Shown: in pieces, positions 5,231 to 29,595 of the stretch
Position numbering within the stretch: position 1 is the stretch's first letter
Layout of the letters: every line of letters starts with the position of its first letter
Virus record (IMG/VR): IMGVR_UViG_3300009285_000641
Span: 1-31,250 of that record
DNA length: 31,250 nt
Strand: one strand, 5' to 3'
Source: a virus
Translations under genes and position numbers: made by a program
Notes under the pieces: generated by a model
The model's input: the letters and a program-made list of their open reading frames with translations, nothing else
What the model was told of the DNA's origin: nothing
The model's database searches: none

Positions 5231-5788
5231 TTATTTTGGCGCGGACAAGGTAATTGATCCTTCAATCTGATCCCCGTATACATCCCATCTCGGACGGTGA
5301 TAACGAGCGAATAACTCAAGGTAATTCATGTTGGGATATAGACGCTCTATTTTAGCGTATTGCTCATCTGGCTTGCGGGAATGGTCGCGGATAGATGACA
5401 TGATAAGTGCTTGAACATTGTGGGTTGCCACAGGCATTGTTCCGCGAACAGCCAAGAGAGAAGGTTCAGTATTGGAGCGCGTATAGTAACCCATACCGAT
5501 ATGAGTTCCCATACTGTTCTCGTTGAGTTTAACCCATACCCAAGCCACAGTCCTATAGGTAAATCCCCACGCAGTTATGACGGTGAAGGCATCTTTAAGA
5601 TTGGGCCATGTAGCCCATAAAAACAAAGTACAGTTCTCCGTGATAACATTTGCAATGGGCATGGCGCAAATGTCTTCAACGGACATGAGGTTATATTTGT
5701 GGCTGGCATGGCGATCTGACTTCTCTGCATTCCACACGGAAAATGTCCACGGTGGGTCTGCTAGAATTACATCATAAAGTTTAGTCAT
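5231..5788 (-). CDS. MT-A70 family adenine-N6 DNA methyltransferase
   Basis: This 185-residue enzyme has the MT-A70 catalytic motif DPPW at residues 11-14 (YDVILADPPWTF), followed by the family-like segments ENCTLFLWAT, AWGFTYRTVAWVW and, near the end, YLELFARYHRPRWDVYGDQ. It should methylate adenine N6 in DNA; RNA is possible from the family but less likely in a phage. The start is the ATG at 5788 overlapping the upstream stop as ATGA; a TTG five codons upstream is the alternative. It is the third DNA methyltransferase in the first 6 kb and, like the others, has no partner nuclease. Confidence 0.92.
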   Translation of the reverse strand: MTKLYDVILADPPWTFSVWNAEKSDRHASHKYNLMSVEDICAMPIANVITENCTLFLWATWPNLKDAFTVITAWGFTYRTVAWVWVKLNENSMGTHIGMGYYTRSNTEPSLLAVRGTMPVATHNVQALIMSSIRDHSRKPDEQYAKIERLYPNMNYLELFARYHRPRWDVYGDQIEGSITLSAPK

Positions 5789-5934
5789 GCCTTTTTGCCA
5801 CAATCTTCTGGGGGTATGTAATCTCGTAGAAATTCATCATCGGCCCGACTAGCTACAATGCACAAAGACATGATGAGCAGAATGGATATTGTGGCAAAAA
5901 GGATGCAGATTGAGGAGACAATTGCGATTGTCAT
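5785..5934 (-). CDS. Small single-pass membrane protein
   Basis: This 49-residue protein is mostly one hydrophobic helix (about residues 3-28: IAIVSSICILFATISILLIM...) followed by a short charged tail with a single cysteine. The ATG lies one base after the stop of the preceding gene. A longer in-frame extension starting near 6108 is rejected because it is read out of frame across a well-supported gene. The function is unknown. It is too short to call a spanin or holin, although its topology would fit a small envelope-active peptide. Confidence 0.6.
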   Translation of the reverse strand: MTIAIVSSICILFATISILLIMSLCIVASRADDEFLRDYIPPEDCGKKA

Positions 5935-6698: not shown

Positions 6699-7361
6699 TC
6701 ATTCGCAGTCGGGACATTGGTATTTCCCTGGCCTTACAATTTCAAGTCTGTGTCCACATTCTAAACAGCAAGCCATATCTTCAGGACAGTAAAAGTTAAT
6801 CCTAGCATGTTCACCATATAACTCTTGAGCTTTTTTATCAAATGCCAGGGCGGCTGGCAAAGAGGCGTCGTAAGTTCCCAGGGATACAAGAACTTTGCCC
6901 ACCTTTATTCTGGCCCGGTATTTCTTTCCATCACGTATCACACCTCTAAGACCGAGGTTATTTCTGTAATGTCTATTCTGACTATTTACAGAAGCAGAAA
7001 CCGATCTCAAGTTTTCCTTTCTGTTATCAAGTGTGTTGCCATTGATGTGATCTGTCTGTAAACCATCTGGCGTTCTATTTATTTCCCTGTGCATCCAGAT
7101 AATAGTTGTATTTACAAAACGGGCGGCATACCCTTTTTGAGAACTGAGGCCAGTACAGTGATAGTGCCACTCAAATGGCGATAACCAATCATAATCTTCA
7201 TCGTCAACAAGCGCCATTCTGCTCCTGGTAAGAGGTATTGTTCTCACGCAAACAATTACTCCATAACTGGCGGTTGCGGGTGGGCCGAGCCTTGCGCGGG
7301 AACTATTTGTTCTCTGTCTGCTGGGGTCAACAAGGTTTGCACGCCCGCAACATGTAATCAT
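6699..7361 (-). CDS. HNH homing endonuclease with AP2 DNA-binding domain
   Basis: This 220-residue protein has the layout of a free-standing phage HNH endonuclease. 'IPLTRSRMALVDDEDYDWL' precedes an HNH core (IWMHREI, then QTDHINGNTLDNRKENLR, about 90-122). It is followed by an AP2-type DNA-binding domain (GVIRDGKKYRARIKVGKVLVSLG..., about 138-190) and a C-terminal zinc ribbon (CLECG ... CPDC). Such enzymes nick DNA and spread their own gene. The ATG at 7361 has an AAAAGG site, but the first ~43 residues look atypical; a GTG beginning 'RTIPLT' is a plausible true start. It sits at the border between the leftward block and the rightward regulatory operon and is probably a mobile gene. Confidence 0.88.
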   Translation of the reverse strand: MITCCGRANLVDPSRQRTNSSRARLGPPATASYGVIVCVRTIPLTRSRMALVDDEDYDWLSPFEWHYHCTGLSSQKGYAARFVNTTIIWMHREINRTPDGLQTDHINGNTLDNRKENLRSVSASVNSQNRHYRNNLGLRGVIRDGKKYRARIKVGKVLVSLGTYDASLPAALAFDKKAQELYGEHARINFYCPEDMACCLECGHRLEIVRPGKYQCPDCE

Positions 7362-7640: not shown

Positions 7641-8474
7641 ATGAAACGTAGCTTTGGAAGCATGATTCTTCTGTACGGCATGGGTTTGCTTCTATTGGCC
7701 TTCACCAGTTACCGAACTATTTCCTTGGTGGCGGCCACGCTACCTGCTGAGGCACAGATACTCTCGGTTGTGGCAGTCGTGGCCTTTGACTTGGGCATCG
7801 TCGCCTGGGCCTACTACTTTGGGCATGGGGCGAAGTCCAATGAGCAAGTCACTATTTCCGGCGTCATGGTCACAATGGATTTCGTCGGTATGGCAATTCT
7901 GTTCATTGCCCACACACTAATCAACCAACATTTCTATGCACCGTCTTCCAATATGCTGATTGCAATGGGAACCACTGCTGTTTGGACGCTAGTTATTGGC
8001 ACATTGGGAAATGTAGCGGGTCTGTTGGCTTGCCACTTGCTTGACCCAGACGAGATTATGCGCCGAGCGCAACGGGATGCCGAAGCCGAGATTGACCACG
8101 AGGCGGTTGAGATCGTGCGCCGACAGTCTAAGCAATTGGCAAGTCGGGTTGCCCCTAGTATTGCACAAGAAGCTCTGGAAAAGGCGCGGGCCGGGCGCGC
8201 CTCTAACATTGGTCTACCGAGAACACATGTTGAAATGGCATTTCCCAAGGATGTTGCCACTCTCCAAGCGCCTCCCATTGGACGACAATCCCAGGTGGCC
8301 GATGAGACACTGGAGGATGTTTCGACTCTGCGTATGCCACCCGTATCTGCCCAAGCCGTTGTGTCCAATGTGGTGAGGGGCAAACCCGGTAGACCGCCCA
8401 AGCATCAACCAGTTGAATTCTCTGGCGATGGACATGGCGAAGGTGGCCCTGACCCAAAATCTCAAATGCCTTGA
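7641..8474 (+). CDS. Four-helix membrane protein with C-terminal AT-hook
   Basis: This 277-residue protein has four hydrophobic segments (about 5-25, 38-62, 73-95 and 106-130), then a long charged helical region (about 133-180: DPDEIMRRAQRDAEAEIDHEAVEIVRRQSKQL). A low-complexity tail carries an AT-hook-like motif, KPGRPPK (248-254), which binds the minor groove of A/T-rich DNA in other proteins. The arrangement suggests a protein that holds DNA at the cytoplasmic membrane, but no family was recognised. It is co-transcribed with the ribbon-helix-helix regulator one base upstream. Confidence 0.7.
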   Translation: MKRSFGSMILLYGMGLLLLAFTSYRTISLVAATLPAEAQILSVVAVVAFDLGIVAWAYYFGHGAKSNEQVTISGVMVTMDFVGMAILFIAHTLINQHFYAPSSNMLIAMGTTAVWTLVIGTLGNVAGLLACHLLDPDEIMRRAQRDAEAEIDHEAVEIVRRQSKQLASRVAPSIAQEALEKARAGRASNIGLPRTHVEMAFPKDVATLQAPPIGRQSQVADETLEDVSTLRMPPVSAQAVVSNVVRGKPGRPPKHQPVEFSGDGHGEGGPDPKSQMP

Positions 8475-22901: not shown

Positions 22902-23243
22902 TTGTCATACGGCGACACATACTACGGTATCGTTACAAGCGGGTCTACGGCGACCTCTGCTGCTACGGCGCATTTGCTCTTCGGGGCCTATCAGGGATTG
23001 AGCACACTGGGGCAGAATGAGATCGTCAACATCCAGTTGATAGCGACGGCCAATGACGTTCGTGTTTGGAACAGCACCGTGACCAACAACACGGGCTTAC
23101 GCTTGACGCAATCGGCCTCGGCTTTTGATCTGCCACCCATGCGCGCAGGGGAGGCCAGCGGGCTTCACATGGTCAGAGACGGTTCTGGCAATCCTACAGT
23201 GTTGTGGACTGTCTGGAGCCGGAATCCGGGGACGACAAAATGA
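22902..23243 (+). CDS. Structural protein paralogue 1 (SYGD family pair)
   Basis: This 113-residue protein starts at TTG, four bases after a strong GGAGGCAATT site. It shares order and motifs with the next gene: SYGDxxY/F, LLFGAYQGLSxLGQNE, VNIQL, NNTGxRL, DLPPMRxGxAS and PTVLWTVWxR. A beta-rich virion protein is likely from composition and position among structural genes; the function is unknown. Its stop overlaps the start of its paralogue as ATGA, the mark of a tandem duplication. Confidence 0.65.
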   Translation: MSYGDTYYGIVTSGSTATSAATAHLLFGAYQGLSTLGQNEIVNIQLIATANDVRVWNSTVTNNTGLRLTQSASAFDLPPMRAGEASGLHMVRDGSGNPTVLWTVWSRNPGTTK

Positions 23244-23578
23244 GCTACGGGGACTCGTTTTTCCATGCGGTTATCAGCGGCTCTACAAGCGGGAGTGAGA
23301 TACCCAATCTTCTGTTTGGGAGCTACCAGGGGTTGAGTGACTTGGGGCAGAATGAGGTGGTCAACATTCAGTTATGCACCACGACTGCCGAGGCCAGGGT
23401 GTGGGACACAACGACTACAAACAATACAGGGTTTCGTCTCAATCAGGCAGCTTCCATTATTGATCTGCCTCCTATGCGAGTCGGGGCGGCCAGCCTTATG
23501 AAGATCATGCGCGAGACGGCGACCAGCCCGACGGTGCTGTGGACGGTGTGGCGCAGAGTTTCGGGAGCTATGCAGTAG
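23240..23578 (+). CDS. Structural protein paralogue 2 (SYGD family pair)
   Basis: This 112-residue protein aligns with the preceding one over its full length (SYGDSFFHAVISGST, LLFGSYQGLSDLGQNEVVNIQL, NNTGFRLNQAAS, DLPPMRVGAAS, TVLWTVWRR). The ATG at 23240, overlapping the upstream stop, gives the homologous N terminus; a GTG 12 codons earlier is rejected for that reason. The two copies have diverged clearly, so both are probably kept by selection, perhaps as two subunits of one virion part. Confidence 0.65.
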   Translation: MSYGDSFFHAVISGSTSGSEIPNLLFGSYQGLSDLGQNEVVNIQLCTTTAEARVWDTTTTNNTGFRLNQAASIIDLPPMRVGAASLMKIMRETATSPTVLWTVWRRVSGAMQ

Positions 23579-24116: not shown

Positions 24117-25160
24117 ATGGCAAAAAAGGGTTGCTCTAAGTGCGGGAATGAATTTGAAGCAAGAGGCAACAGATCAAAATACTGCTCTATCAAATGCCAA
24201 TATGGAATTGGTGTTTGTAGAACATGCGGAAAAGAGTTCGTTAAGAAATCAAATACTACTGGAGATTACTGTTCTAGTAGATGTTGGTATAACTCTGAAG
24301 ACTTCAAGGATGTTGAATACAAGAAATGTTCTCATTGTGGAGTAAGTAAGCCCCATACCGAATTCCCATATTCTGGTGGAAAGGGAGAACTTCATGGTTG
24401 GTGCAAAGATTGTCATAGTCAATCCTACGAGGAAAATCAGTCCAAGAAAAGGCAATCCGCCATAAAGTACGCAATAGGTGATTTCCCGGAGCGAATCAAG
24501 AAATATAGATTAGAGCAAGGAATGACACAACAGGAATTCGGTAAAAAAGTCGGAATTGGCGCTACCCAGATTAGACACTGGGAAAAGGGTACAAGTCTTC
24601 CGCATCCCAAGAAAGTAAAATTCATATTTGATCTATTTGGATGGGAAGTTCCAGACGAATTAAATGAAAGACAAGATTTTAGATTGCCACTTGGAATTGG
24701 AATATGCCCATATTGTGGAAACTCATTTCCAATCTATAGAACCAAAACGGTATTTTGTTCCAGGATTTGTAACAACAGATACCATAGCAGTGAGCGAAGT
24801 TCAACCTGGCGTGGCGGGAAATATGAGTCTGGGTGTGGCTATATCAAAGTCAAGATGCCAGACCATCCCAACTCAGATACCAGTGGCTATATCCCAGAGC
24901 ATAGATTGATAATGGAGAGAATTTTGGGTAGACATTTACTTCTTGGCGAAAAGGTTCATCACAAGAACGGAATTCGTGATGATAATCGTCCAGAAAATCT
25001 TGAGTTGTGGACTACGGATCACAAAGACCCTCCAGGAGTGCGTGTTTCAGATAAGATAGCAGATGATATACTCTCTCAACCTGAAATTTCAGAATTGCCA
25101 GAAGAAATCAGAGGAAGAATAAAAGACGCATTGTATCGGGTTGCAAACAAACAGAGTTGA
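24117..25160 (+). CDS. HNH endonuclease with zinc fingers and HTH domain
   Basis: This 347-residue protein has several Cys clusters in its first 110 residues (CSKCG ... YCSIKC, CRTCG ... YCSSRC, CSHCG ... CKDC). An XRE-like helix-turn-helix follows (about 130-175: IKKYRLEQGMTQQEFGKKVGIGATQIRHWEKG), another zinc finger (CPYCG ... FCSRIC) and an HNH nuclease (HRLIMERILGRHLLLGEKVHHKNGIRDDNRPENLELW, about 262-300). This layout is typical of mobile phage HNH nucleases. AAGGAG precedes the ATG, and a weak TTGCGT-17-CATACT promoter lies at 24067-24095. Its sequence is visibly more A+T-rich than the structural genes around it, so it probably inserted recently. Confidence 0.88.
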   Translation: MAKKGCSKCGNEFEARGNRSKYCSIKCQYGIGVCRTCGKEFVKKSNTTGDYCSSRCWYNSEDFKDVEYKKCSHCGVSKPHTEFPYSGGKGELHGWCKDCHSQSYEENQSKKRQSAIKYAIGDFPERIKKYRLEQGMTQQEFGKKVGIGATQIRHWEKGTSLPHPKKVKFIFDLFGWEVPDELNERQDFRLPLGIGICPYCGNSFPIYRTKTVFCSRICNNRYHSSERSSTWRGGKYESGCGYIKVKMPDHPNSDTSGYIPEHRLIMERILGRHLLLGEKVHHKNGIRDDNRPENLELWTTDHKDPPGVRVSDKIADDILSQPEISELPEEIRGRIKDALYRVANKQS

Positions 25161-25612: not shown

Positions 25613-26527
25613 ATGTCTCAATTGAGTATCCTCGTACCAGCAGGTGGGGAGACATTTCTATCAAAGACAGTGGACGATCTCTTTACTAAAGCTGATGGCG
25701 AGATTGAAGTTGTCGTCGCATTAGATGGTGTGTGGCCTAATCCGACCCTAATGGATCGGCCCGGTCTTCGCATCATTCATTTTGGCGCACATCGGGGAAT
25801 GCGGGCTTGTCTTAATGCCGCTGCTGCTGTGGCAACAGGCGAGTGGATAATGAAGCTTGATGCCCATTGTATGGTTGCTGAGGGCTTTGATGAGGTTCTT
25901 AAACGTGATTGCGCCGACAACTGGGTAATGATCCCACGTCGTTACAGTCTAGATGCGGAGAATTGGAAGATTGAGGAGAACGGTAGAGGGCCAAAAGATT
26001 ATCACTATCTTAGTTGCCCAGAATGGAGTATCCGTGAACGTGATGATTACTCTATGCACGGGGTAGAGTGGAAAGAAAGAACACGGGAACGACACAACAA
26101 GCCAGAATATGATATTGACGAGACAATGAGTTGGCAAGGCAGTTGTTGGTTCATGTCTCGTAAACATTGGGACTGGTTGGGTGGACTATCAGAGTTTGGT
26201 TATGGCACATTTGCTCAAGAGCCACAAGAGATTGGAAACAAGACATGGCTAGGAGGGGGGAAATTGATGTGCAATAAGAAGACGTGGTACGCACATCTCC
26301 ACAAAGGAAAGAGGTATGCTCATTTGTGGCGCATGTATCAAGTGGTTCAACAAGAGATTGCAACGGGTCACGAATGGTCTGCAAGATACTGGATGGGCAA
26401 TCAGTGGAAAGAACGTGTGCATGATTTGGAATGGCTTATAGACCGTTTCTCGCCTGTTCCAACGTGGACACCCCATTGGAAAGAACTGTATGTCGAAAGT
26501 GTCAGTCGTCATCCCATCGCGCAATGA
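25613..26527 (+). CDS. GT-A family glycosyltransferase (paralogue 1)
   Basis: This 304-residue protein has a family 2-like GT-A fold: nucleotide-sugar binding start 'LSILVPAGGETFLSKTVDDLF', 'EVVVALDGVWPNP', and the metal site 'IMKLDAHCMVAEGFDEVL'. The DxH with following cysteine replaces the usual DxD, as in GT27 polypeptide GalNAc-transferases. Acceptor-side landmarks follow (WQGSCWFMSRKHWDWLGGL, FAQEPQEIGNKTWLGGGKLMCN, WYAHLHKG). It should transfer a sugar to a phage or host acceptor, which is not identifiable. There is no clear Shine-Dalgarno site, and the gene follows the coiled-coil gene by 10 bp. It overlaps its paralogue by 38 bp. Confidence 0.85.
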   Translation: MSQLSILVPAGGETFLSKTVDDLFTKADGEIEVVVALDGVWPNPTLMDRPGLRIIHFGAHRGMRACLNAAAAVATGEWIMKLDAHCMVAEGFDEVLKRDCADNWVMIPRRYSLDAENWKIEENGRGPKDYHYLSCPEWSIRERDDYSMHGVEWKERTRERHNKPEYDIDETMSWQGSCWFMSRKHWDWLGGLSEFGYGTFAQEPQEIGNKTWLGGGKLMCNKKTWYAHLHKGKRYAHLWRMYQVVQQEIATGHEWSARYWMGNQWKERVHDLEWLIDRFSPVPTWTPHWKELYVESVSRHPIAQ

Positions 26528-27407
26528 AGTATACGAGATCGCGCCGGGTGTAACCGTCCTTCAACGCATGGTTCAAGACCTCTACGAAAAAGCAACAGGA
26601 GAATTCGAGGTCATCGTTGCTTTTGACGGCCCCCCATATCAGCAGTTCCCAGATTATCCTAACCTGACACGTTTAGAGTTGCCCCAACTAGGTCTCAAGC
26701 CTTGCGTCAATGAGGCCGCACATATAGCAACAGGCAAGTACCTTTGCAAATTCGATTCACACTGTATGGTCAGTAAGAGTTTTGATGAGGTTCTTCAGGA
26801 ACACATGGAAGACAATTGGCTTATCACGCCACGTTTCTATGTACTGGATGCGGAGGAGTGGAAGTGGCAGGATGAGCGGTTCTATGATTACTTTTTCTTG
26901 GATTGTCCACTGACCGATAGAGTGCAATATCGATTCAAGGCAGGGGGACATTGGCCACAACGCACTAAGGAGCGAATGCACATTGGCCCCCTAGATGAAA
27001 CTATGGTGATGCACGGGTCTTGTTGGTTCTTATCCCGCGATTACTTTTTGAATTGTCTGGGTGGGATGTCATCTATCGGGTATGACTCGTTTGGCATGGA
27101 ACCGGCTGAACTCTGCTTGAAAACTTGGTTGGGGCCATGGAATGGCAAAGTCTTTGTGCGTAAAGATGCTTGGTTTGCACATATGCACAAAGGTGGCCAA
27201 CGACCTCGGGGTTATAACTTAAGCAAGGAACGCATTTGGAACTCCTACGCCTGGACAGCAAATTATTGGATGTCCAATAGTTGGCCAGAGCGTGCGCATG
27301 ATTTGGAATGGCTAGTGGACAAATTCATGCCGATTCCAAGTTGGCCTAAAAATTGGAGTGAGTTGCAAGCGCAACATGAGGCTGAGCGACAAACAGAAAC
27401 GATGTGA
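26490..27407 (+). CDS. GT-A family glycosyltransferase (paralogue 2)
   Basis: This 305-residue paralogue of the preceding enzyme shares the block order: VSVVIPSRNEVYEI, EFEVIVAFDGPPYQ, 'LCKFDSHCMVSKSFDEVLQEH' with the DxHC metal site, 'VLDAEEWKW', MHGSCWFLSRDYFLNCLGGM, and PAELCLKTWLGPWNGKVFV ... WFAHMHKGG. GGAAAG precedes its ATG, which lies inside the end of paralogue 1. Two adjacent, diverged copies suggest successive sugar additions or two acceptors. Its stop overlaps the next GTG start. Confidence 0.85.
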   Translation: MSKVSVVIPSRNEVYEIAPGVTVLQRMVQDLYEKATGEFEVIVAFDGPPYQQFPDYPNLTRLELPQLGLKPCVNEAAHIATGKYLCKFDSHCMVSKSFDEVLQEHMEDNWLITPRFYVLDAEEWKWQDERFYDYFFLDCPLTDRVQYRFKAGGHWPQRTKERMHIGPLDETMVMHGSCWFLSRDYFLNCLGGMSSIGYDSFGMEPAELCLKTWLGPWNGKVFVRKDAWFAHMHKGGQRPRGYNLSKERIWNSYAWTANYWMSNSWPERAHDLEWLVDKFMPIPSWPKNWSELQAQHEAERQTETM

Positions 27408-27892
27408 TTATAGGCCACGGTGACATTGCCAGTGTATTGGTTGACAGACCTGACAGACTATTTTTTGCCTCAGGTGTCTCCAATAGTTCTGAGGTGCGAG
27501 AGTCTGAATACAGACGCGAAATTGATCTTCTAATGATGCAAGAACGAACAGCGCACCTTGTGTATTTCGGTTCTTTATGTATTTTCTATTCTGAAACTCG
27601 CTATGCCATGCACAAGCAACAAATGGAGTCAATGGTTAAGGCGTTGTTTGCACGCTATACCATTATTCGATTGGGCAATATAACTTGGGGAACAAACTTT
27701 CATACGCTCATCAATCACTTACGAGAAATGAAACGCAGAGGACAACCATTAGATATTCAGGATGTTTATCGGTACATCGTGGATGAGGAAGAGTTACGAT
27801 ATTGGTTGTCCCTCATCCCGGAATGGAGTTGTGAACTCAATATACCCGGACGCCGAATGAAGGTTGCGCAGATCGTCAAGGAATTTGTATGA
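27404..27892 (+). CDS. Short SDR / NAD-dependent epimerase-like protein
   Basis: This 162-residue protein looks like a reduced sugar epimerase/dehydratase: 'RPDRLFFASGVSNSSE', 'HLVYFGSLCIFYSETRYAMHKQQMESMVKA' containing the SDR-type Tyr-x3-Lys (Tyr-Ala-Met-His-Lys), and 'YTIIRLGNITWGTN'. The classical N-terminal GxxGxxG nucleotide motif is poor (IGHGDIASVL), and the protein is about half the usual length, so the reaction is uncertain. The start is GTG overlapping the previous stop. Its place between glycosyltransferases and methyltransferases suggests work on a nucleotide sugar. Confidence 0.65.
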   Translation: MIIGHGDIASVLVDRPDRLFFASGVSNSSEVRESEYRREIDLLMMQERTAHLVYFGSLCIFYSETRYAMHKQQMESMVKALFARYTIIRLGNITWGTNFHTLINHLREMKRRGQPLDIQDVYRYIVDEEELRYWLSLIPEWSCELNIPGRRMKVAQIVKEFV

Positions 27893-28389
27893 AACTCTCT
27901 GCGAGATATGGCACGCATTTGTTGGCGCTCATGCGAGCAGTGTACAAAACAAGGGGTGATGTTCTGGAGTTAGGTATTGGGCCATTCAGCACACCGATTT
28001 TACATGAGATGTGCGTCTCGCGATGCTTGGTATCTATAGATAATAGCATGGAATTTTATGAATGGGCCAAGAAATACCAAACAGAATTTCACGAGATTGA
28101 ATTTGTGAATAACTGGGACGAGGCTGATATTGAGAAGCAATGGGATGTTGTGCTAGTGGATCACTCACCGTCTGAAAGGCGCGTGACTGAGATTAAGAAA
28201 TTATCGAGGCTTGCGCGGTATATCGTGGCCCATGATGCTAATGGTCGGTACGATGACTTTTATCATTACAGCACTATTTATCCGCTATTCAAATACAAGT
28301 ATGTTTTCAGCGCCGTTGAGCCAAGCACAGTTATATTGAGCAACTTTGTTGACTTGGGAAGTTTTTGGAGCAGACGTGAACAAAGATGA
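27889..28389 (+). CDS. Class I SAM methyltransferase-like protein A
   Basis: This 166-residue protein has a Rossmann methyltransferase start, 'DVLELGIGPFSTPILHEM' (motif I about 25-33), 'CLVSIDNSMEFYEWAKK' (acidic strand 2), and 'QWDVVLVDHSPSERRVTEI'. 'ARYIVAHDANGRYDDF' ends the core. The family acts on small molecules or sugars; the substrate is unknown. It overlaps the gene before it as ATGA and is overlapped by the next methyltransferase. Confidence 0.7.
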   Translation: MKLSARYGTHLLALMRAVYKTRGDVLELGIGPFSTPILHEMCVSRCLVSIDNSMEFYEWAKKYQTEFHEIEFVNNWDEADIEKQWDVVLVDHSPSERRVTEIKKLSRLARYIVAHDANGRYDDFYHYSTIYPLFKYKYVFSAVEPSTVILSNFVDLGSFWSRREQR

Positions 28390-28996
28390 AACGCTAGAGT
28401 TTATTAGAAACAAATTCAATCTGGACTTGTCTGCACGCACGCCTATTGAGTTCCGTTTGAGCCGTCACGGTGGACTAACTTCTCTCTTTTGTGAGTTGGG
28501 ATATACAGCGGGGGCTGAAATTGGCGTTGAGCAAGGAAAATTCTCTGCGGAGATTTGTCGTGACAATCTCGGCGTCAAACTCTACTGCATTGACCCATGG
28601 CAAACATATACACGGTACATTGACGAAGTTAGCCAAGACAAATTAGACGGATACCATGCTGAGGCTATAGAACGCCTTGCACCCTATGATGTGACGATCA
28701 TTCGTAAAACCAGCATGGAGGCCGTGAAAGATTTTGAGCCAAGCTCGCTCGACTTCGTGTTTATAGACGGCAACCACGACTTTCGCTATGTAGTCAATGA
28801 CATTATCTATTGGGCGGATGTCGTGCGAATAGGGGGGATCGTTGCGGGCCATGATTACAAAAACGAGAACAAGAATCGTCGCATTCCGTTCCACGTCGTG
28901 CAGGCCATAAATGCCTACACGGATTCATATCACATCCGACCCTGGTTTGTGATAAGAGGCGACAAGGCTTCTAGTTGGATGTGGGTAAAGATATAA
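28376..28996 (+). CDS. Class I SAM methyltransferase B (Methyltransf_24-like)
   Basis: This 206-residue protein has 'GAEIGVEQGKFSAEIC' (motif I), 'KLYCIDPWQTY', 'SSLDFVFIDGNHDFRYVVNDIIYWADVVRIGGIVAGHDY', the pattern of the Methyltransf_24 type often found in glycan clusters. The GTG at 28376 is chosen because GGAG lies 5 bp before it; a TTG ten codons upstream is the alternative. It is probably a sugar methyltransferase acting with the glycosyltransferases. Its 3' end overlaps a leftward gene by 26 bp. Confidence 0.8.
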   Translation: MNKDETLEFIRNKFNLDLSARTPIEFRLSRHGGLTSLFCELGYTAGAEIGVEQGKFSAEICRDNLGVKLYCIDPWQTYTRYIDEVSQDKLDGYHAEAIERLAPYDVTIIRKTSMEAVKDFEPSSLDFVFIDGNHDFRYVVNDIIYWADVVRIGGIVAGHDYKNENKNRRIPFHVVQAINAYTDSYHIRPWFVIRGDKASSWMWVKI

Positions 28997-29249
28997 AATG
29001 GTCAAGCACAATCCAATCCATACCGAGCAAGTCCCCATCACTGATGATCCACTTGTGCCAAGAACCACTTGGCTTATGGAGCATCAACAAACCGTCTCTA
29101 AGCGTTCCGTAACATTGTGTATCTCCCCATTCGAGTTTAGTGATGCACTTGCCCTCATTGATGATGGACGACAACGCTTGCGGGAAACCTGTGGTCTTGG
29201 GCGGCACAGGTGATTGTGAGGCTGTGGAAGGTGTTGTTATGTCTGTCAT
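28971..29249 (-). CDS. Tad2-like (DUF2829) protein, putative anti-Thoeris
   Basis: This 92-residue protein is read against the direction of all surrounding late genes. From about residue 23 it has the DUF2829/Tad2 pattern: 'FPQALSSIINEGKCITKLEWGD', 'GLLMLHKPSGSWHKWIISDGDLLGMDWIVL', matching the family order F-xx-AL ... G-K ... W ... DW-x-V. Known Tad2 proteins are phage sponges that bind the signalling nucleotide of Thoeris defence. A promoter lies directly upstream at 29257-29285 and would give a nearly leaderless mRNA; no Shine-Dalgarno site is seen. Ligand specificity is not predictable. A plus-strand frame at 28998-29213 is judged its shadow. Confidence 0.75.
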   Translation of the reverse strand: MTDITTPSTASQSPVPPKTTGFPQALSSIINEGKCITKLEWGDTQCYGTLRDGLLMLHKPSGSWHKWIISDGDLLGMDWIVLDHFISLPTSN

Positions 29250-29595
29250 GGCGGAAAGTGTAGCGCAAAGCATGTTACCTGTCAATCTTGTATCTCTTCC
29301 AGCCTGTTGTCTTGACTTAGATATTTTGTTAGAAGACATTATCTTCCCAGAGCGGATGGATAGCGATGGGAGGGAATTTTTTTCCGCACACGAGTTGGAT
29401 TCCGTGACACTCCGTAAGCTGAGAAAAGGAGCGATCAATCTGGGTGGTGGAATGGTGAAGATAAAACATCGTTGCGCACAATTGTTGGATGACGGGAGAT
29501 GTGGAATATACGAGACTCGCCCAAAGATTTGCCGTGATTTTGATTGTACTACACGGCACGATTGTGCCTGTCAGGGCAGGGGGAAACTCCCATGA
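29239..29595 (+). CDS. YkgJ-type cysteine-cluster protein
   Basis: This 118-residue protein has the C-terminal pattern of the YkgJ/UPF0153 family: 'CAQLLDDGRCGIYETRPKICRDFDC', followed by further cysteines (HDCACQGRG), plus an N-terminal 'PACCLDLDILL'. The family is thought to bind zinc or an iron-sulfur cluster; its role is unclear. The ATG at 29239 has AAGG 7 bp upstream; a start at 29140 would run through the Tad2-like gene and is less likely. It belongs to the rightward modification cluster and overlaps the next glycosyltransferase as ATGA. Confidence 0.75.
   Translation: MSVMAESVAQSMLPVNLVSLPACCLDLDILLEDIIFPERMDSDGREFFSAHELDSVTLRKLRKGAINLGGGMVKIKHRCAQLLDDGRCGIYETRPKICRDFDCTTRHDCACQGRGKLP
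29257..29285 (-). promoter_or_regulatory. Promoter of the Tad2-like gene
   Basis: On the minus strand TTGACA (29285-29280), a 17-bp spacer and TACACT (29262-29257). Seven bases separate the -10 box from the ATG at 29249, so the start site would coincide with the start codon. It lies inside the divergent YkgJ-like gene. Confidence 0.6.

Follow-up and report, generated by a model that had tools for sequence, protein, structure and literature searches.

What is a short leftward gene doing within the rightward glycan cluster of a phage genome, and does its resemblance to Tad2 make it an anti-Thoeris gene? The question is raised by the IMG/VR record IMGVR_UViG_3300009285_000641, which was analyzed over its whole length of 31,250 nucleotides and is called the window here. 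The rightward part of the window codes for portal, prohead protease and capsid, followed by the glycan cluster. A Megablast search of positions 7641 to 31250 against GenBank phages gave no match. Two tandem overlapping ORFs after the capsid gene (22902-23243 and 23204-23578), paralogous by eye, possibly encode decoration or head-tail proteins. The leftward arm carries three DNA methyltransferase genes (C5, N4/N6 and MT-A70; 59-1318, 1345-2862 and 5231-5803, respectively), which suggest DNA modification against restriction. HNH-type endonuclease genes are located at 24117-25160 and 6699-7361, one of them with an HTH domain.

The glycan cluster contains, on the plus strand, a glycosyltransferase family 2 gene (25613-26527), a second glycosyltransferase gene recognized by its similarity to the former (26490-27407), two genes without a Pfam match at E ≤ 0.01 (27404-27892 and 27889-28389, the latter methyltransferase-like by eye), a methyltransferase gene (PF13578; 28346-28996), a gene for a YkgJ-like CxxCxxCC protein (PF03692, 27.0 bits at a cut-off of 23; 29272-29595) and a two-domain glycosyltransferase gene (PF00535; 29592-31250) which is cut by the contig end. 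The Tad2-like gene was found on the minus strand at 28971-29249. Its 92 amino acids comprise an N-terminal tail with the motif SPVP and the Tad2 fold, which extends from about residue 17-20 to residue 84. From the ORF lists, it is the sole leftward gene in the rightward block, about 10.3 kb up to the contig end, as the preliminary description of this DNA had noticed.

The leftward gene reported at this place is indeed present and shows the DUF2829/Tad2 pattern, PF11195 being its sole Pfam match at E ≤ 1. The observation is thus correct in kind, with amended coordinates. The gene had been drawn up to position 29285, but this base opens the −35 box of its own proposed promoter and is therefore not usable as gene start. 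The start is 29249, where an ATG provides a workable initiation codon and matches the SP-bearing N-terminus of the subfamily described below. Nor is the gene hidden antisense inside another one: it fits into the 275 bases that separate 28996 from 29272, apart from a tail-to-tail overlap of 26 bases with the methyltransferase gene ending at 28996. The YkgJ-like neighbor had been described as divergent and overlapping. It is divergent, but an overlap is not needed, as an ORF with its start at 29272, 22 bases from the Tad2-like start, accommodates the PF03692 domain.

Taken alone, the window protein matched PF11195 (DUF2829) with an E-value of 0.0011, while its score of 19.9 bits with the originally proposed coordinates, or 20.4 bits from the ATG, stays under the curated cut-off of 25 bits. 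As the sole query it found no close relatives in viral contigs and one weak match (E 0.06) in GenBank phages, and searches against PHROGs and NCBIfam returned weak or no matches. In the PDB the single sequence obtained chance matches only, so that an alignment profile was required. With the adjacent methyltransferase as query, the loci L002, L003 and L004 were retrieved, and two of these three records contain a PF11195 match, compared to none of 29 records found via the terminase. The relative in L003, which adjoins homologous genes, shares 51% identity across 68 residues (E 1e-23). An alignment of three sequences led to 13 loci. When PF11195 was run on the whole records of the 12 loci other than L002, all 12 matched, nine of them above the cut-off. 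The subsequent alignment A3 comprises 25 of the distinct members available at that stage; the script gave no ATG for L047, L066, L071 and the doubtful L142, which were omitted. PF11195 is matched at E ≤ 0.01 by 24 of these 25, the window protein included, with a best value of 3.5e-11. Searched against the PDB, the 25-member profile retrieved seven distinct sequences at E ≤ 1, all of them Tad2/AcrIIA7, with E-values of 2.5e-11 to 1.3e-7.

The subfamily now counts 36 members, one per distinct protein, all from uncultivated phage contigs or metagenome-assembled genomes (MAGs). The same or nearly the same proteins, for example in L039-L041, L044, L045, L110, L113 and L177, were not counted again. 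L142/L160 (G107), a weak subfamily match, was kept among the 22 PF11195-positive records considered below, but outside the 36 members. A search on DUF2829, Tad2 and Thoeris yielded nothing on such a subfamily in the titles and opening lines of abstracts.

The AlphaFold model of the window protein has a mean pLDDT of 85, with 92-95 in the core, and a pTM of 0.67. In a Foldseek comparison with the PDB, the top 21 rows are Tad2 chains with E-values between 7e-4 and 2e-2 (E ≤ 0.001 in the first row only), and the following row has an E-value of 1.0. The predicted structure likewise bears out the Tad2 fold in VIA-align, with Z-scores of 9.6-11.0 to ten Tad2/AcrIIA7 entries and 4.0 for the next fold. 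Matches to other folds (mitoribosome, WYL regulators) were set aside as weak, with Z-scores of about 3-4. Sequence profile and structural model together support the assignment of the window protein as Tad2-like by family and predicted fold. Membership is secured by the relatives, the PDB profile and the fold, its own Pfam score being under the cut-off, and the original family call was correct.

To define the features of the subfamily, its 36 distinct members were aligned with SPO1 Tad2 and ModTad2. The stretch between b2 and b3 consists of two residues in 35 members and of four in the remaining one, compared to 24 residues in both SPO1 Tad2 and ModTad2. Thirty of the 36 members carry an SP or TP motif in their N-terminal tail. 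Conserved in all members, as in SPO1 Tad2, are W41, K/R38, D73, D78 and an aromatic residue at W79, followed by S/N70 (33 members) and W67 (30 members). G72 and D/N43, each found in 32 of 36, are specific for the subfamily, and their conservation argues for a conserved site. The sequence WNGK, common to the four printed Tad2 loops (SPO1, ModTad2, HgmTad2 and SptTad2), was used as a yardstick for the b1-b2 loop and is not matched by the subfamily: its G27 is replaced by D/N in 32 of the 36, and the window protein reads WGDT. The SQTD of SPO1 Tad2 is mostly replaced by S/N-D/E-G-D (S/N in 33, D/E in 29 and G in 32 of the 36).

A review (PMC12043709) states that the ADP-ribose/gcADPR pocket is lined by the loops b1-b2, b3-b4 and b4-a3, strand b4 and helix a3, and that cyclic dinucleotides are held apart from this pocket, via an insertion between b2 and b5. 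The preliminary description had proposed a comparison with the known ligand pocket, and its outcome was divided. All pocket-lining elements have counterparts in the model and the alignment, but the WNGK loop residues are altered; the counterparts were matched to the description in the review by our own strand numbering, at the level of elements rather than of ligand-contact residues. By our mapping of the aligned sequences, the missing 24-residue loop would be the cyclic-dinucleotide insertion. This loop is an unsure guide to the ligand, since SPO1 Tad2 has it and yet did not bind 3′3′-cGAMP according to PMC11722364. Because the loop is absent and WNGK is changed, the ligand may also differ from gcADPR.

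Compared to SPO1 Tad2 (gp34.65; PDB 8sme, 8smf, 8smg and 8wje), the window protein has the same predicted fold (Z 10.2 to 8sme and 11.0 to 8wje) at about 20% identity. W25, W73, S76, D79, D84 and W85 of SPO1 Tad2 are retained, whereas the 24-residue loop is reduced to two residues, WNGK is changed to WGDT and SQTD to SDGD, and the SPVP tail is additional. At 127.1 kb in SPO1, the tad2 gene is surrounded by small genes, most of them without a name, and not by a glycan cluster. ModTad2/MoTad2 from a Myroides odoratus prophage (PDB 8v3e; 9eib with hisADPR) shares the fold as well (Z 10.4), but has the 24-residue loop and WNGK, both of which the window subfamily lacks. It demonstrates that the Tad2 family can bind His-ADPR, as given by the title of 9eib and by PMC13299392. 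HgmTad2/AcrIIA7 (PDB 8kbi-8kbm and 8wjc) and SptTad2 (8wjd) also have this fold (Z 9.7-10.8); with 104 and 101 residues, respectively, and WNGK in both, they are longer than the window protein, and according to the PDB titles both were co-crystallized with cGG (8kbk and 8wjd). Short Tad2 forms are not confined to the window subfamily, since the viral model library holds short DUF2829 proteins with a short Tad2 fold, such as A0A2K9VAK2 (60 aa) and A0A3G3BVE3 (75 aa). The models of these short proteins superimpose on the window protein with an rmsd of 1.4-1.5 over 62-67 columns at 22-29% identity.

The two-domain glycosyltransferase, which served as anchor beside recurring Tad2-like genes, was used as query for the genomic context, and the best 80 of the 193 loci found were analyzed. 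Among these best 80, homologs of the neighboring methyltransferase (28346-28996) occur in 62 loci, compared to none of 30 terminase loci, while homologs of the genes at 27889-28389 and 27404-27892 occur in 12 and 6 loci, respectively. PF11195 matched once each in 22 of the best 80 records; the other 58, like all of these records being fragments, gave no match. The difference between 22 of 80 and 0 of 29 terminase relatives is significant (Fisher P 4e-4; 6.3 expected from the bases searched). In 13 of the 22 positive records, the Tad2-like gene is located within 2.1 kb of the glycosyltransferase gene and always upstream of it. A uniform placement would give 2.85 (P about 2e-7, or 2e-6 without two near-duplicates). 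In the remaining nine records the distance exceeds 11 kb.

Across the 36 distinct members, 23 are found within 2.5 kb of a phage glycosyltransferase gene and 13 are not, in the DNA examined. The share of 23 is inflated, as many members were found via glycan genes or glycan-cluster seeds. The 13 others include L207 with only about 2 kb of DNA as well as L178 and L171 at distances of 3.0 and 4.2 kb, and eight of the 13 come from records that also have a glycosyltransferase gene, more than 11 kb off. The first scan led by Tad2-like proteins, with three glycan-cluster seeds, gave 13 of 13 loci near a glycosyltransferase gene. When a single far-type member led the scan, 6 of the 15 loci fell within 2.5 kb, and L178 would be the seventh, at 2.2-3.0 kb depending on how the distance is measured.

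For the two places upstream of the glycosyltransferase gene, a census was made of 141 out of 149 ORFs (omitted were six ORFs of the near-duplicates L089, L110 and L113 and one ORF each of L071 and L116; in L093 and L109 the ATG of the Tad2-like gene was taken as the new start). The families listed, 25 of 65, are headed by glycosyltransferase 2 (26 ORFs) and methyltransferase 24 (23), followed by UDP-sugar dehydrogenase (11), another glycosyltransferase model (10), Tad2-like (7) and HNH (4), and the other 40 families have at most two members each. Tad2-like is thereby the most common family outside the glycan and methyltransferase genes, and no other anti-defense family is among the 25 of 65 listed. 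HNH genes, two of which occur elsewhere in the window, recur in this slot beside the glycosyltransferase gene. In five loci (L003, L074, L093, L097 and L111), the Tad2-like gene is located directly 5′ of an ORF resembling UDP-glucose/GDP-mannose dehydrogenases by eye, which was confirmed by Pfam for L093. In L002 and L186 it lies on the same strand between structural-looking genes (by eye) and glycan genes. Just upstream of the glycan clusters of L002 and L003, proteins with long SPSAS/SKSAS serine repeats are encoded (L002:3546-4430 and L003:4299-5318), which look like targets of virion O-glycosylation.

The far-type copies are found in other surroundings. They adjoin or lie near terminase genes in L152 and L158, and are near ssDNA-binding and Cas4-like genes in L153 and near a ParB/methyltransferase-type gene in L157. 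The tree built from these short sequences is poorly supported, good values being reached on 6 of its 34 inner branches. It interleaves near and far copies, as in the supported pairs L118 (near)/L170 (far) and L156 (far)/L166 (near). At least three changes of context are forced by well-supported branches, and the best tree has eight. The context labels are somewhat clustered, as shuffling gave a mean of 10.9 changes and only 26 of 500 shuffles were as low as eight. On balance, the Tad2-like gene behaves as portable cargo. Three of the far-type genes (in L152, L157 and L158) are neighbored by a recurrent gene for a protein of about 81-85 aa, winged-helix-like by eye (L152:5642-5899, L157:5635-5880 and L158:5941-6192), which may be a partner or regulator; the L152 copy had no match in PHROGs. 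A further subfamily member, L207:400-645, is encoded on a contig of a Levyibacteriota MAG just behind an ORF whose cysteine pattern is Cas4-like by eye, an early-module setting.

For the window gene, a promoter of its own and an independent, probably early expression had been proposed. The sigma-70-like site TTGACA-17-TACACT is present on the minus strand at 29257-29285, with 10 of 12 matches to the consensus. The −10 hexamer TACACT ends seven bases before the ATG at 29249, and a message from this promoter would be leaderless or nearly so. The site is the best of six promoter-like sites between 27.4 and 31.25 kb, where 7.1 are expected by chance. Including the window gene, five copies run opposite to the nearest glycosyltransferase gene (window, L042, L118, L119 and L166). 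Four of these have a site of at least 10/12 with an exact TTGACA and a spacing of 16-17, the one in L166 being perfect, and no strong promoter-like site was found for the L042 copy. Sites of at least 10/12 precede 2 of the 31 other copies and 38 of 430 control ORF starts. For the opposite-strand copies the binomial P-value against the controls is 3e-4, in a grouping that was chosen after the data had been seen. When all 36 copies are taken together, the enrichment is not significant (6 of 36 against 38 of 430; P 0.11), and no intrinsic terminator for the Tad2-like gene was found on the minus strand between 27400 and 31250. The promoter is therefore plausible for the window gene, given the similar sites of opposite-strand copies, but not significantly enriched among the copies as a whole. 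Likewise, independent expression is plausible for the window copy, but independent and early expression is no trait of the family, since 18 of the 23 glycan-cluster copies are on the strand of the nearest glycosyltransferase gene. These 18 are presumably co-transcribed with it.

The hosts are only hinted at. Two subfamily members were reached in MAGs via the glycosyltransferase, one of them (L186) in a binned Woesebacteria genome, in which the Tad2-like gene is directly before the glycosyltransferase gene as in L002. Glycosyltransferase homologs in bacterial species genomes belong, by title, to Patescibacteria-type MAGs in 26 of 28 loci, the lineage being confirmed for Woesebacteria. Patescibacteria-type hosts are thus possible. 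One strict 9-residue pattern found no subfamily member in bacterial species genomes (it does not fit the two later MAG members), and a tblastn search of GenBank phages with one far-type member did not find the subfamily. The 379 genomes of the phylum to which the MAG of L180 belongs, the putative host phylum, contain ThsB_TIR in 12 cases (3%) and PF11195 in one. A terminase search in the same 379 genomes gave nothing, which is uninformative by itself. Phage-type glycosyltransferase/methyltransferase clusters in Patescibacteria-type MAGs (L179-L206), including one titled as chromosome (L199), may represent prophages or cell-surface loci. The literature search returned nothing that joins Tad2, glycosyltransferase and Thoeris, whereas Patescibacteria, phage and Thoeris co-occur in one paper.

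With fold, family, missing loop, recurrent position and several contexts established computationally, the best explanation, which we consider just about probable, is that the protein is an immune-messenger sponge of a loop-less Tad2 subfamily with a ligand of the ADP-ribose type. By analogy to Tad2, a homotetramer, the small protein would assemble into an oligomer and sequester a nucleotide-type immune messenger, so that the effector of the host would stay untriggered. The ligand would more likely be of the ADP-ribose type (gcADPR, His-ADPR or a relative) than a cyclic dinucleotide, because the pocket-lining elements are kept while the putative dinucleotide-binding loop is gone. In the window, where the gene is opposite to the glycan genes, it would probably be read from its own sigma-70-like promoter. 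"Anti-Thoeris" was a fair first hypothesis, but it loses some ground due to the changed pocket loop and the company of glycan genes. Several observations count against a sponge: the subfamily has neither WNGK nor the long loop; the placement near glycosyltransferase genes is far from random, for which mobility as cargo would not account on its own; the contexts are somewhat clustered on the tree; the slot census lists no further anti-defense family among its 25; few genomes of the putative host phylum have ThsB_TIR, a host assignment that is weak; and HgmTad2/AcrIIA7, a protein with the Tad2 fold, also bears an anti-CRISPR name. That the frame is open merely by chance might have been suspected from the single-sequence Pfam score and the lack of a close relative in the first scans. 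The L003 relative beside homologous genes, on the sense strand of its cluster, speaks against this, and together with the 36 distinct members and the confident fold the relatives refute it, leaving a practically negligible probability.

The non-random placement could also mean that the Tad2 fold serves the glycan pathway of the phage by binding a nucleotide sugar or an NAD-derived product, the protein regulating or feeding the adjoining virion-decorating glycosyltransferase or UDP-sugar dehydrogenase. The 23 members close to a glycosyltransferase gene, the excess of near placements, the five loci with the gene directly before a dehydrogenase-like ORF, the rank of the family in the slot census and the PF11195 matches among the best 80 of 193 glycosyltransferase records as opposed to the terminase relatives all agree with such a role, which nevertheless appears unlikely: 13 members are not near, eight of them despite a glycosyltransferase gene elsewhere in the record, the tree does not set near copies apart from far ones, 58 of the best 80 records, which are fragments, have no PF11195 match, and the far-type-led scan found fewer than half of its loci within 2.5 kb. 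It is mainly because the gene behaves as portable cargo that an immune role is preferred over an integral glycan role. A related idea, that the SP-tailed loop-less subfamily represents a second, glycan-cluster use of the nucleotide-binding Tad2 fold, in which the gene would move back and forth between early and glycan modules, is doubtful to a similar degree. Anti-defense by protein binding, for example inhibition of CRISPR-Cas by a protein of the same fold, is suggested by the PDB, where AcrIIA7, a protein with the Tad2 fold, is titled "Inhibitor of Type II CRISPR-Cas system", and by the assignment of DUF2829 to AcrIIA7 in a 2019 survey (PMC6739104). The same AcrIIA7 sequence was crystallized with 1′,2′-cADPR and cGG according to the titles of 8kbj and 8kbk, so that ligand binding is what the structures show for it, and the conserved residues of the subfamily fall in the reported pocket-lining elements; we regard inhibition by protein binding as quite improbable. 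Still less probability is given to a role in the virion or its assembly, as part of the late cluster and without immune function. The copies of L002 and L186 between structural-looking and glycan genes would suit it, but the far copies near ssDNA-binding, Cas4-like or terminase genes do not, and opposite-strand copies with a promoter-like site of their own are a misfit for a late structural gene.

The findings bear on the annotation of the family. In the viral model library, "Thoeris anti-defense 2-like" is the name given to many PF11195 proteins, and the loop-less, often glycan-associated subfamily tests how safe this label is. If its members are still sponges, they would be minimal ones, possibly for a new class of ligand. 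If they are not, the common annotation would be wrong for part of the PF11195 family.
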